From positions 39,089,682 to 39,153,681 of the forward strand of contig NC_052619.1 of NCBI RefSeq assembly GCF_016545825.1: a DNA stretch of 64,000 nt. Reading direction: 5' to 3'. Below are positions 6,831 through 64,000 of the stretch, piece by piece. Made by a program: the position numbers and the translations under genes. Within the stretch, counting starts at the first letter, position 1. Every line of letters starts with the position of its first letter. Below the pieces are notes generated by a model, which was not told the origin of the DNA, searched no databases, and saw only the letters and a program-made list of their open reading frames with translations. This stretch comes from Eucalyptus grandis (taxonomy: Eukaryota; Streptophyta; Magnoliopsida; Myrtales; Myrtaceae).

Positions 6831-7103
6831 ATGCTCATCGAAATATCCGAAAATTAAAACTAGTAGGTGAGATATGTACCATGAGGCGCGTGGGGAGTAG
6901 TTAAGCAGGTGGTGGCTGAACTATGATAAATTTTCAACAAGGCGTTTCCTGCCTGCTTGAAAAATCCTTAAATAAGGTCAAAAACGTGCAAAAAAAGAGA
7001 GAAAGAGAGAGAAATAATAAAAGCTCGCCGTCCAAAAAGTTTTCGCAGCCATAGGTTTTCTGTAACATGAAATCTCCAAGTTCAAACTACCAGTAAAAAC
7101 TAC

Positions 7104-7733: not shown

Positions 7734-15818
<8,085 letters not shown>

Positions 15819-19440: not shown

Positions 19441-20874
19441 GGGCAGAAGTACAGCCCAAGTGCCATAACTTGGCACCGGGGAACACTCAAGTGCCATAAC
19501 TTCAAAATGGTACACTTGAGTACCAGTTTCGAAGTTAAATGGGACACTTAAGTGCCACTCCGATGAAAATCCGGCCAAATGGCTGACGTGGCAACTTTCC
19601 GGCAAGTTTGGTCCAAAACGGCGTTGTTTTGCACGCTGACGTGGCGGAGAAAATGCAAAAACGACGCCGTTTCGCGTCTAACGTGTAAATAATAATATAA
19701 AAATTAATTAAATTAAATTTAAACTTAATTTTATTTAAAATATTAAAAAAAATTTAAAAAATTAAGAAAAAAATTAAAAAATTAAGAAAATTAAGAAAAA
19801 ATTATAAATGGGGGGATCGAACGGGCAGCTAAGGGCTGAGCCCTTCGCCGCCGTTGCCTCCCGCCGTCGCCCGGGAAGGGCCGGCGACGAAGGGGGAGGG
19901 TCGGCCGAGGTCGCCGCCCCGGGCGGCCCGACAACGAGGGCTCACGGGCCCTCGCCACCGGTCGGCCGGCCTCGGCGCCCTTGGCCGGGGCTCGGCGACC
20001 CCGGCCAGCCCTCCCCACTCCGTCGCCGGCCCTTCCGGCGGCGGCGAGGAGGCGGCAAGGGCCGAGAGCCCTCGCCGGATGCAGGTGAGGGTCGCGGCCC
20101 ACGCCCGGATCTAGGGGAGGGTCGCGGCCCTCGCCCGGATCCGGCGAGGGCTCGCGGGCCCTCGCCGCCTCCCGCCGCCGCCGGGAAGGGCCGGCGACGG
20201 AGTGGGAGGGTCGGCCGAGGTCGCCGGGCCCTAGCCAAGGGCTAGCGAGGCCGGCCGGCCGGCGGCGGGCTCGCGAGCCCTCACCTAGATGGGGGCGAGG
20301 GTCGCGGCCCTCACCCTCCGGTGAGGGCTCGCAGCCCTCGCCGTCGGCCGGCCGGGGCGTGACCGCCGGCCGTCCCCTCTTCGTCGCCGGCCCTTCCGGC
20401 GACAACGAGGCGGCGGCGGCGGGCTCACCCTCAACCGCCCATTCGATCTCCCCTCCCCCTCTTTTTTTAATTTTTTAATTTTCTTAATTTTCTTAATTTT
20501 TAAATTTTTAAATTTTCTTAATTTTCTTAATTTTTAAATTTTTAAATTTTTCTTAAATTTTTTAAATTTTTGAATATTTTAAATAAAATTAATTTTAAAT
20601 CTAATTTAATGAATTTTTATATTATTATTTACACGTCAGATACAAAACGACGTCGTTTTTGCATTTTCTCCGCCGCGTCAGCGTGCAAAACGACGCCGTT
20701 TTGGACCAAACTCGCCGGAAAATTGCCACATCAGCCATTTGGCCGGATTTTCACCGGAGTGGCACTTAAGTGTCTCATTTTACTCCGATTTTGGCACTTA
20801 AGTGTACCATTTTAAAGTTATGGCACTTAAGTGTCCCTTCGTGCCAAGTTTTGGCACTCTAGGTGTCCCAACCT
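19441..20874. mobile_element. Mutator-like long-TIR element with GC-rich core (family 1)
   Basis: A 1434-bp non-autonomous element with an exact 10-bp target duplication. The arms are inverted repeats of roughly 300 bp containing GTGCCATAACTT, TGGGACACTTAAGTGCCAC, ATCCGGCCAAATGGCTGA and AACGACGCCGTTT blocks, then an AT-rich stretch of AAATTTAAAAATT type. The centre (about 19810-20450) is extremely GC-rich and built from GGCGAGGGTCGCGGCCCTCG-type palindromic units, which create long open frames on both strands. No transposase was seen. The long frames in the core are compositional and are not called as genes. Confidence 0.88.
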
Positions 20875-33144: not shown

Positions 33145-43849
<10,705 letters not shown>

Positions 43850-44970: not shown

Positions 44971-45888
44971 GAGATAAGTACACTAATTGTGCCATAAGTT
45001 GTATACGGCGCTCACTTTGGTGCCAAAAGTTTCCGTCGGATCATTTAAGTGCCAAAAAATTTGAAAAATGCTCACTTTGGTGCCAATTCCAACGAAATTG
45101 GCCGGAAATCCGACGTGGCCTTTTTTTATTAATTTTTGACGCCAACGTGGCTCGTCGGAGAGTTGAGTCAGCATCCAAATACTAAAACGACGCCGTTTGG
45201 TGTCTCCCCCAATTCAAAACCCTAATCTCCGGCTGTCGCCATCCTCGACGGTCCTTGCGCTCTGCGGCCACGGCTTCAACCTCGACCTCGACCCCAACCC
45301 CGACGATGGCCACTCAACGGTAGCGGCTCCGACCTCGACCCCAACCCCGACCCCGACGATGGCCACTCGGCGGCCGTAGCTCCGACCCCAACCTCGACCC
45401 CGACCGCGACGATGGCCACTCAACGGCCGCGGCTCAAACCCCGACCCCGACCCCGACGATGGCCACTCGACGGCCATAGCTTCGACCCCGACCCCAACCT
45501 CGATGATGGCCACTCGGCGGCCGCAGCTTCGACCCCGACTCCGACCCCAACCTCGACAACGGCCACGGCTTCGACCCCGTCGAAACCCTAATTTCTTCCC
45601 CATGTAAGCTAAACGGCGTTGTTTCCATGAAGCCATCCACGTTGGACGGCAAAACGACGTCGTTTTCTTAAGGAGGACCGAAAACGACGTCATTTAAAGG
45701 CTTATCAATTTTTATTTTTTTTAAAAATCATTTTGGGCGGAATCTTTCGTCGGAGGCCGGAATCTTTCGCCGGTGGCACCAAAGTGAGCGTTTTTCCTCC
45801 GATTTGGCACTTAAGTGATCCGACGGAAACTTTTGGCACCAAAGTGAGCGCCGTACACAACTTATGGCACCATTAGTGTACTTATCCC
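44971..45888. mobile_element. Mutator-like TIR element with minisatellite core (family 3)
   Basis: A 918-bp element with an exact 9-bp target duplication, GATTATTTG, at 44962-44970 and 45889-45897. Terminal inverted repeats of about 110 bp are well conserved: GAGATAAGTACACTAATTGT at the left and GGGATAAGTACACTAATGGT from the right, then TGCCATAAGTTG, CGGCGCTCACTTTGGTGCCA and AAGTTTCCGTCGGATCA. Internal parts carry AAAACGACGCCGTTT and AAAACGACGTCGTTTT. The core is a GC-rich minisatellite. No transposase frame. Confidence 0.9.
45250..45590. repeat. GC-rich minisatellite in the family 3 element
   Basis: Irregular repetition of GACCCCGACCCCGACGATGG and GCCACTCGGCGGCCG units, about 50-60 bp apart. 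It produces Pro/Asp/Thr-rich open frames on both strands that are compositional. It may derive from a captured coding sequence, since the preceding ACCCTAATCTCCGGC looks like a gene 5' region; that is a guess. Confidence 0.75.
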
Positions 45889-52843: not shown

Positions 52844-54541
52844 CCTTCATGGCCATGAAATGATCCTAATGGTTCTTATTTCTCCATATGGATTGGTGAC
52901 ATGGCATCTTGGGTGGTTAGGTGTGAAATGAGTAACATGTGTAGCCGTGACTCTTAGATGCTAAAAGTAGTTTTCCTAAGTCATCAATTTCCTCCTTGTT
53001 TTGCTTTGTGAGTTGGCTGAATTCCTTAATGGGCTAGCGGGCTCTTTATGTCAGCCAATTGGGCCAAATAGTCCTTATTAGGCTTCAACCCAATGGGCCG
53101 GACCTGTTTGAGTCCAACCGAGTTGACCCAGGGCCTTCCAATTGTCTTAATTCTCTCTAAATTGCTCCATAGGCTTGGCTATTTCAATTGGTTCAGCCTA
53201 ATAGGCCCAATTCGGTCGAGTCAACTAGCTTGACCTATTGCTCCCGATTCATTATTTTCGCTTAATTCTTCTTATTACTCTATTTGTACCCAAATTGATG
53301 TTGAAATTCGATTAATTTTGACCAAACAAGATTTTAATTGTGCTAAGTGGCTTTATTATGAAAGTTTAATCACATCTGTAGATTTGCACTTGAAGATAAG
53401 CTGACCTAGTTGAGTTTGGAATCTTGAAATTGGCTTGAAATCCTAAATTGCCGTGGCCCTAGATCAAATCAATATATTTTTGGAATTTGTCAATCGAAGG
53501 TAAAGTTTTAGGTTTGACCACAAAGTCAACTCACAATATTTTTATTAAAATAAAACTTAGAATTAAAAGTCTAACTATGCTTGCAAAGATAAAATTGATA
53601 TCTTTTATGGTTTTCATAAATTTTAGGGAAAATATCATCAAAAATCCTAAACTTTGCCTACTAAAGTGACAAATTTACCCAAAACCTTTTTTGTAACATG
53701 AAAAACTCCAAAGGCATTTTTGTCCTTTTTTTCTTTTTTTCTTCTTCTCTCTTCTCTCCACCGGCCATGGCAGAGCCAACGGAGGGAAGCTGGCGTTCGG
53801 CAAGGGCTACCCTCCCTGCGTCAGGTGAGGGTTGCCCTCGCTTGGGTTGGCTAGGGCCACCCTCGCCGACATCCCTTGCTGGTGTCAAGCGAGGGGTGCC
53901 CTCACCGGATCTGGCAAGGGCCGTCCTCACCCGACACAGGCGAGGGTGGCCCTCATCGGCATCAGGCGAAGGGGCCTCCCTCGCCGGATCTAGCAAGGGC
54001 ACCCCACGCCAAGTGAGGGAGGCCCTCCTCGCCCATCGTCGGCGAGGGCCTGGCAAGGGCGAGGGCCTCACCCGACCCAGTCGAGGGCCGCCCTCACCCG
54101 ATGCCAGCTTCCCTTCGCTAGCGGTCGGCGGAGGGAAGAGAGAAGAAGGAAAAGAAAAAAGAAAAAAATAAAAAGTAAAAAGACCAAAATGCTCTATAGT
54201 TTAGGATAAATGTGTTACAAATATAGAAATTCAGGGTTTTTTGTATCACGAAAAAAAAATTGGGGTAAATTTGTCATTTTGAGCAAAGTTTGGGGTTTTT
54301 GGTGGTCTTTTCTCTAAATTTTATAATATGTTGACCAAAAGTTGACTTTTGTTAGATTTGACTAAAAATTCAATCTTTGATTTATTTGGAAAATGACGTC
54401 TAATAAGTACATAGAATGAAACAACACTCAAAAGGCATCAAGAAAATTCTTTTTGGCCAAGGAACGGATCAAGATTAGGAATCCCCAAGTCTCAAGTTTT
54501 TATCTTATTAGATATATCAACAAAAATTTAGGTGTCAACAA
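52844..54541 (-). repeat. Gypsy (TAT/Athila-like) LTR fragment, inverse orientation
   Basis: Read on the minus strand from 54541 it starts TGTTGACACCTAAATTTTTG, the typical start of TAT-type LTRs. Its first 90 bp resemble the LTR at 26083. GTTGACTTTTGG and GTCAACTC words occur further in. It is interrupted by the TIR element at 53636-54314 and probably by the Copia element. No internal Gypsy coding was seen, so it may be a solo or truncated LTR; the left limit is unknown. Confidence 0.5.
53636..54314. mobile_element. Mutator-like TIR element with GAGGG/CCCTC core (family 4)
   Basis: A 679-bp element flanked by TAAATTTTA at 53627-53635 and 54315-54323 (exact 9 bp). Ends: GGGAAAATATCATCAAAAAT at the left and GAGAAAAGACCACCAAAAAC from the right, continuing CCTAAACTTTGC/CCCAAACTTTGC and GACAAATTTACCC on both sides. 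The core (53760-54120) starts CCACCGGCCATGG and consists of GGCGAGGG..GCCCTCGCC units between a T/C-rich left arm and a purine-rich right arm. Open frames through the core are compositional. Confidence 0.9.

Positions 54542-54888: not shown

Positions 54889-64000
<9,112 letters not shown>

Follow-up and report, generated by a model that had tools for sequence, protein, structure and literature searches.

How do transposons with different ends come to carry one kind of centre? The question is raised by a 64,000-nt stretch of the Eucalyptus grandis genome (contig NC_052619.1, positions 39,089,682 to 39,153,681; hereafter the window), in which the elements A1, B1, C1 and D1 each enclose a GC-rich palindromic core between terminal inverted repeats (TIRs) of families A, B, C and D. 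These elements are non-autonomous hairpin-like inverted-repeat transposons, and we consider it rather probable that their GC palindromic centres are homologous and moved as a module between TIR families, presumably by template switching in repair. Transfer of the core between families is well supported; template switching is the mechanism that we infer for it. Names and counts of non-autonomous families normally follow the ends, as though ends and centre had one history; this assumption fails where a centre passes between families and superfamilies. The four elements, delimited beforehand in an initial annotation, proved real at nearly the same coordinates, C1 starting at 53626 and not 10 bp later, at 53636:

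53626..54314, unstranded: C1, apparently Mutator-like inverted-repeat element of 689 bp, TIR family C, delimited by its duplications and arms
53617-53625 and 54315-54323: target duplication of C1, TAAATTTTA, exact, 9 bp
53725..53757, + strand: left inner arm of C1, pyrimidine-rich
53757..54138, unstranded: core of C1, pyrimidine-left class, with tandem GGCGAGGG-3 nt-CCCTCGCC hairpin units and 6-7-nt spacers
53758..53768 (C1, + strand) and 61449-61459 (D1): CCACCGGCCAT, core opening common to C1 and D1
54139..54170, + strand: right inner arm of C1, purine-rich, complementing the left arm
19442..20874, unstranded: A1, TIR family A, target duplication CTATGGAATGG (11 bp)
19815-20462: core of A1, long-loop class
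37144..37829, unstranded: B1, TIR family B, flanks CCACTATTT/CCATCATTT (7/9 match)
37373-37601: core of B1, pyrimidine-left, 3-nt-loop class
about 61181..61891, unstranded: D1, TIR family D, without clear target duplication
61446-61585: core of D1, pyrimidine-left class, starting with CCACCGGCCAT

All 16 exact copies of GGCGAGGG/CCCTCGCC in the window lie inside these four elements. In A1, B1 and C1 they are more numerous than in any of 2000 shuffled versions of the core concerned; the single exact unit of D1 is equalled in 22 of 2000. B1, C1 and D1 have a common unit geometry, i.e. 8 + 3 + 8 nt with spacers of mostly 6-7 nt (the loop being 3 nt in 8 of the 10 hairpins of C1), and a 25-bp matrix derived solely from C1 finds, outside C1, only B1 and D1 above the best background score of 12.2 (0/1000 shuffles for each). 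A1 fails this test (237/1000) because its loops, mostly 6-9 nt, are too long for a rigid matrix; it has the same half-units and spacers, and its free local alignment with C1 scores 47, the best of 300 shuffles reaching 46. Compared with 300 dinucleotide shuffles for each pair of window cores, the scores of B1-C1 (57), A1-C1 (47), C1-D1 (36) and B1-D1 (30) lie beyond every shuffle, and that of A1-B1 is matched by two, whereas all pairs with the centres of two control elements, A3 and G1, are at chance. In addition, a GGATCT spacer is common to the cores, and the loop variants TTG and CCA follow each other in the same order in B1 and C1. The likeness of the centres that had been claimed for the four elements thus holds, most firmly for B1, C1 and D1, and most core pairs beat their shuffles; likewise, CCACCGGCCAT, reported to open the cores of the elements placed at 53636 and 61183, was found in C1 and D1.

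The material further comprised 300 kb of E. grandis DNA from outside the window (29 stretches of 10 kb, one 2-kb continuation and one 8-kb stretch), i.e. ~364 kb in total. In the first 354 kb, window included, a strict hairpin pattern was counted 19 times, whereas 20 local shuffles averaged 0.15, and the islands rich in units, once read around, yielded A2, B2, D2, D3, D4, F1, F2 and H1-H4. Fourteen cores were scored by z scores derived from shuffled sequences; element and core borders were placed by eye, D2 and D3 were represented by their left core half, A3 was omitted from the main core matrix, and H2, which lies in a duplicate of the H1 site, was excluded from the matrices and from the class-split test given below. 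Other GC islands, including G1 and an island with two exact 8-mers (k8), served as controls. While 22 of the 79 between-family core pairs exceeded z 4, where the similarity is partly selected since the cores were chosen partly via their units, none of the 168 core-control pairs did so; 2 of 66 control-control pairs were above z 4 (one, k3-k10, at z 77.8, being a true match) and another was at 4.0. When this was rerun with 200 shuffles, 19 of the 79 between-family pairs lay beyond every shuffle and z 4, six of these 19 being among the 33 pairs that join family H to the Mutator-like families. The cores of H1 and D2 are identical in 120 of 147 ungapped columns (173-column alignment). Relatedness of the cores across TIR families exceeds, on this sample, what composition accounts for, and GC-rich simple sequence, which the initial annotation had set against its own claim, does not suffice to explain the likeness of the cores, given the core-control result.

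A palindromic junction signature, CCTCGCC(C)GGATCTGGCGAGG, is common to both classes of core distinguished below. Within 4 edits it was located at 23 distinct positions in 356 kb, i.e. 21 in the listed elements, one in H2 and a sole one outside TIR elements (L007:1236, 4 edits). Eleven of these positions, in families A, C, D and H, have two edits or fewer, whereas the shuffled control gave 8 positions across ten copies, none below 3 edits. A search by the core signature places 22 of 23 positions inside TIR elements, and no solo core was seen in the 364 kb read; the final 8 kb (L031) contained neither the signature nor an exact unit. Viral contigs gave 0 matches to the exact 22-bp signature, as expected for plant DNA, and Rfam returned nothing at gathering scores in the window. 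We do not treat the cores as coding: among 457 candidates obtained for the C1-core reading frames against proteins, none reached E<=0.001, and among 7993 scored for those of A1, none reached E<=10, where low complexity may hide protein matches. The centres of D2 and D3 contain, amid the palindromic core, a related gene-like stretch in opposite orientations (L004:8273-8479; L013 ~6966-7100), possibly a captured host fragment.

The 14 cores fall into two classes that loop length and flank polarity separate without exception (1/2002 labelings). The first, with a left-flank pyrimidine content of 0.80 or more, consists of B1, C1, D1-D4, H1, H3 and H4, with a median loop of 3 nt (D3: 5); the second (0.10-0.47) consists of A1, A2, B2, F1 and F2, with median loops of 6-7 nt. 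Single loops measure <=5 nt in 32 of 38 cases in the pyrimidine-left class and >=6 nt in 23 of 26 in the other, several elements supplying just one loop. Both classes occur within TIR family B, and the pyrimidine-left class is found in three Mutator-like families plus H. Cores from different TIR families resemble each other more when they belong to one class than when they do not (mean z 4.59 vs 2.41; 4/10,000 permutations). The core of B1 matches that of C1 at z 14.0, the best between-family match, but that of B2 at 2.1, although the TIRs of B1 and B2 match at z 13.7. Thirteen cores have a family mate among those scored; for six of them (B1, B2, D1, F2, H1 and H3) the closest core lies in another TIR family, B2 being nearest to A, D1 to C1, F2 to A1 and H1 to D. 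Core kinship is mixed, some families retaining their own core and others not; cores that follow TIR phylogeny exactly, the other outcome named as fatal to the initial proposal, were not observed on this sample, although core and TIR agree in part in A, D and F.

A comparison of 110-bp TIRs gave the groups A (with G1 related), B, C, D, F and H, i.e. six core-bearing families. Judging from their ends and target sites, families A, B, C, D and F look Mutator-like, and G likewise: the TIRs are long (arms of 78 to >300 bp at 70-91%; the right end of F2 was not found), all members are short and non-autonomous, and duplications of 9-11 bp are present in A, C, D and G and nearly so in B. Target duplications are exact in A1 (11 bp), A3 (10), C1 (9), G1 (9), D2 (11) and D4 (10), and near in B1 (7/9) and D3 (8/9, shifted by a few bases); no clear one was found on looking in A2, B2, D1, F1 and F2.

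How different the ends are depends on how they are compared. In a local test the TIRs of the window are at chance except for A1-A3, A1-G1, A3-G1 and, weakly, C1-D1 (1/100). In the 110-bp comparison, the between-family Mutator-like pairs at z 4-5 are, besides A-G, A2-F1 (4.1) and D2-F2 (5.2). When compared in register, however, the outer 34 bp give z 3 or more relative to other offsets in 12 of the 15 pairs formed by the Mutator-like families and G, all but A-B, A-F and B-F, whereas H ends gave 0/6 pairs above z 2. An earlier measure of register, for which two ends were moved 1-2 bp to fit, had given a mean of 14.4/34 matches against 8.9 at other offsets. A stricter, free-end 36-bp shuffle test supports relatedness of the A-C, C-D, A-G and C-G ends; it was not significant for B-C (77/500), B-D (48/500), A1-B, A3-B, A1-D and A3-D. 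The description of the TIRs as clearly different is therefore borne out by free local alignment and for H, and that of the ends as unrelated for H, but most Mutator-like family pairs have a common terminal register over the outer 34 bp.

Family H appears to be Tourist/PIF-like by its insertion into TTA, and no coding capacity was seen in it. TTA flanks H1 and H3 on both sides, and H4 has TAA and TTA, inexact at the chosen borders. The Tourist-like TIR type is GGGC...GTTTGG, and the ends of H3 (GGGCGCGTTTGG), H4 (GAGCTTGTTTGG) and H1 (GGGCCTGCATG) may resemble it in some copies. H3 sits in a TIR of A2, and removing H3 together with one TTA restores the A1/A3 sequence in an empty-site alignment. 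In this nested pair (L023:4364-6177), a Tourist-like element within a Mutator-like one, the two GC palindromic centres are of different classes. The core-sharing families, several Mutator-like and one Tourist/PIF-like, are probably mobilised through their ends by different transposases. H1 (L020:2720-3401) and H2 (~L020:9637 to L030:214) occupy duplicated sites with the same TTA, and their flanks are 87-94% identical but their interiors just 63-72%; the element has either changed far more rapidly than the DNA around it or been exchanged for another at the same site.

Ends and core are also separable within a family, as seen from the control A3, which has family A ends, and from arm pairs of families C and F. 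A TIR-first search, with queries drawn from the same elements, gave 18 distinct arm pairs, of which 16 enclosed GC-rich sequence (0.60 or more over 80 bp) at their centre; two, one of family C and one of F, did not. The two controls in the window are as follows:

40164..41515, unstranded: A3, TIR family A as in A1, target duplication TACCCATTCT (10 bp)
44971..45888, unstranded: G1, TIR related to family A, target duplication GATTATTTG (9 bp)

The GC centre of A3 is short (83 bp) and without unit array; its edge, CGAACGGGC, is similar by eye to that of A1, and its inverted arms are very long and nearly pure A/T, with short tandem repeats (window 40444-40796, 40876-41314). G1 has a different centre, a tandem repeat of ~53 bp based on CGACCCCGACC (window 45265-45566). 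Coreless elements with family C-like or F-like ends were noticed at window ~60376-60748, recognised by eye plus a weak match, L010:4413-4882 and L023:3906-4170.

The flanks and position of the core add to this picture. A T/C-rich left and a purine-rich right arm, previously noted in three elements, are present in C1, D1 and B1, the right arm of B1 being weak. Likeness of the inner arms is most evident between C1 and D1 (0/300 shuffles) and weaker for B1 with C1 (6/300) and with D1 (3/300); those of A1 did not match the arms of C1, D1 or B1 in the shuffle test, and the arms of H were compared with Mutator-like arms by eye. Folding of arms plus core, run on C1, D1 and B1, exceeds all shuffles (z -12.8, -4.0 and -4.3, respectively), so that these three have the long inverted repeats and hairpin fold of foldback elements. 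Two short core windows fold no better than shuffles (78/200 and 20/200 as good), although two typed consensus hairpins outperform shuffles; it is therefore mostly the complete arms together with the core that account for the folding. Fourteen centres, A3 and G1 included and A2, F2 and H2 left out, lie near the midpoint of their element: the mean deviation is 0.025 of element length, compared with 0.156 under uniform placement (0/20,000 simulations as small), and the least central are F1 (0.61) and H3 (0.565).

Transfer of the core could have proceeded in three steps: repair or replication synthesis across an element would stall at the palindromic centre, the stalled synthesis would switch template to the palindromic centre of another element, and ordinary transposition by the ends would then spread the new combination of end and core. 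Template switching has a precedent in TIR transposons (PMC8277862, in the parts available). Of the initial suggestion of template switching or gene conversion between elements, the sharing of the core across ends has held and extends to a second superfamily, and the mechanism is still an interpretation. Several points weigh against lateral transfer of the core. The A1-D1 core pair is at chance (25/300 shuffles); the nearest core lies in the own TIR family for 7 of 13 (A1, A2, D2, D3, D4, F1 and H4, the last unstable between shuffle runs, with D4, outside H, nearest in an earlier one); core congruence within families is strong in A1-A2 and D2-D3, and in A, D and F the TIR and core groupings coincide in part. 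Moreover, the TIRs of family H are weakly linked with one another (z 3.3-3.9), the sample showed no junction left by a template switch, the precedent does not, in the text available, concern palindromes, and the sample is small (364 kb, 14 scored cores, eye-set borders and a core choice guided by the units). One may further speculate that the palindromic centre acts as a second-order selfish module, spreading as it converts the centres of other transposons, across superfamilies, via hairpin stalling and template switches, which we regard as doubtful; if true, transposon families would be the short-lived vehicles of a longer-lived core.

Two explanations are left standing, i.e. exchange between elements and repeated capture from the host, and we favour exchange. 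Under capture, each family would have independently taken up one GC palindromic repeat of the host in the fashion of Pack-MULEs, which is conceivable but not likely. Mutator-like elements of rice and maize do acquire GC-rich sequence, according to the portion of PMC3310237 available, and the gene-like stretch in D2 and D3 fits such uptake. However, in ~364 kb read, the signature is confined to TIR elements apart from one outlier at 4 edits, and neither the common flanking arms of C1 and D1 nor the central position would be expected from random capture. Common descent from an ancestor that had both core and ends, with the TIRs diverging faster than the core, would account for the terminal register of most Mutator-like family pairs (12/15) and for the partial congruence in A, D and F. 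We consider it improbable, as the ends of H lie outside the register and insert into TTA, family B harbours both core classes, and the B-C and B-D ends are not significantly related, yet B1-C1 is the best between-family core match.

The remaining two explanations carry little weight. That GC palindromic simple sequence arose separately in each family would agree with units that are short, palindromic and GC-rich, with the A1-D1 pair at chance and with the failure of the rigid matrix on A1. The dinucleotide shuffles, the lack of core-control pairs above z 4, the common GGATCT spacer and the ordered loop variants make such convergence very unlikely, disfavouring it for B1-C1, C1-D and D-H, and likeness by mere composition was dropped. 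Alternatively, core and pyrimidine/purine arms together might be a transposon nested into other elements, since the arms are mutually inverted like the ends of a nested element; given the midpoint position of the centres, this is hardly credible. Random nested insertion was dropped on centrality, and the initial idea of a core that is itself mobile and inserts at random places is disfavoured by the same observation.

Besides the transposons, the window contains reading frames resembling beta-glucosidases, which we take to be those of plant family 1, in at least two places (~13568-14858 and 42266-42948), in an apparent gene cluster. For a retrotransposon-type protein from the window, the relatives that carry species names come from Eucalyptus grandis, E. 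globulus and Syzygium oleosum.

The exchange of cores between families, which we prefer, has no described counterpart that we could find: in the open-access literature, searches on common insides or their exchange and on eucalypt MITEs or Mutator-like elements listed no title or opening of an abstract that describes a core common across TIR families, most subscription papers lying outside its scope, and the core strings occurred in no open-access paper searched. Known modularity is the reverse case, i.e. common ends around different insides. In maize Mu elements, ends and insides have separate histories, one kind of TIR enclosing unrelated insides, whereas here unrelated or distant TIRs enclose a related inside. 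Family H resembles Tourist/PIF-Harbinger miniature inverted-repeat transposable elements in its TTA duplications and possibly, in some copies, in GGGC...GTTTGG-like ends, but differs from them in carrying the GC palindromic core of Mutator-like elements. With its two marked core classes, this set of elements is a natural test system for how non-autonomous elements gain their insides.

Like the Mutator-like elements and Pack-MULEs in the sections available of PMC3310237, some of which have multiple long TIRs, the elements described here have long TIRs, 9-11-bp duplications, no autonomy and an inside of outside origin, GC-rich acquisitions being known for Mutator-like elements; there, however, the inside is a gene fragment of one family, and here it is a palindromic unit array common to several TIR families and to a non-Mutator family. 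Tetris and DAIBAM of Drosophila are likewise foldback-like and modular with internal repeats, and Tetris has TIR ends in common with another element; in the part available of PMC4079207, the ends are common and the repeats lie inside the TIR, whereas here the centre is common across ends. SIRC of Arabidopsis consists of short repeats for which an origin from the inner structure of a MITE has been proposed (PMC10342631, as far as available), but the units found here are palindromic and almost confined to TIR elements. Similar in the proposed mechanism are the Pack-TIRs and the FoSTeST model, in which, as given in the accessible text of PMC8277862, synthesis stalls and switches template within a TIR element before transposition; that account concerns the capture of host sequence in animals, and its main text contains neither 'hairpin' nor 'palindrom', while the elements of E. 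grandis would have exchanged their palindromic centres with one another.
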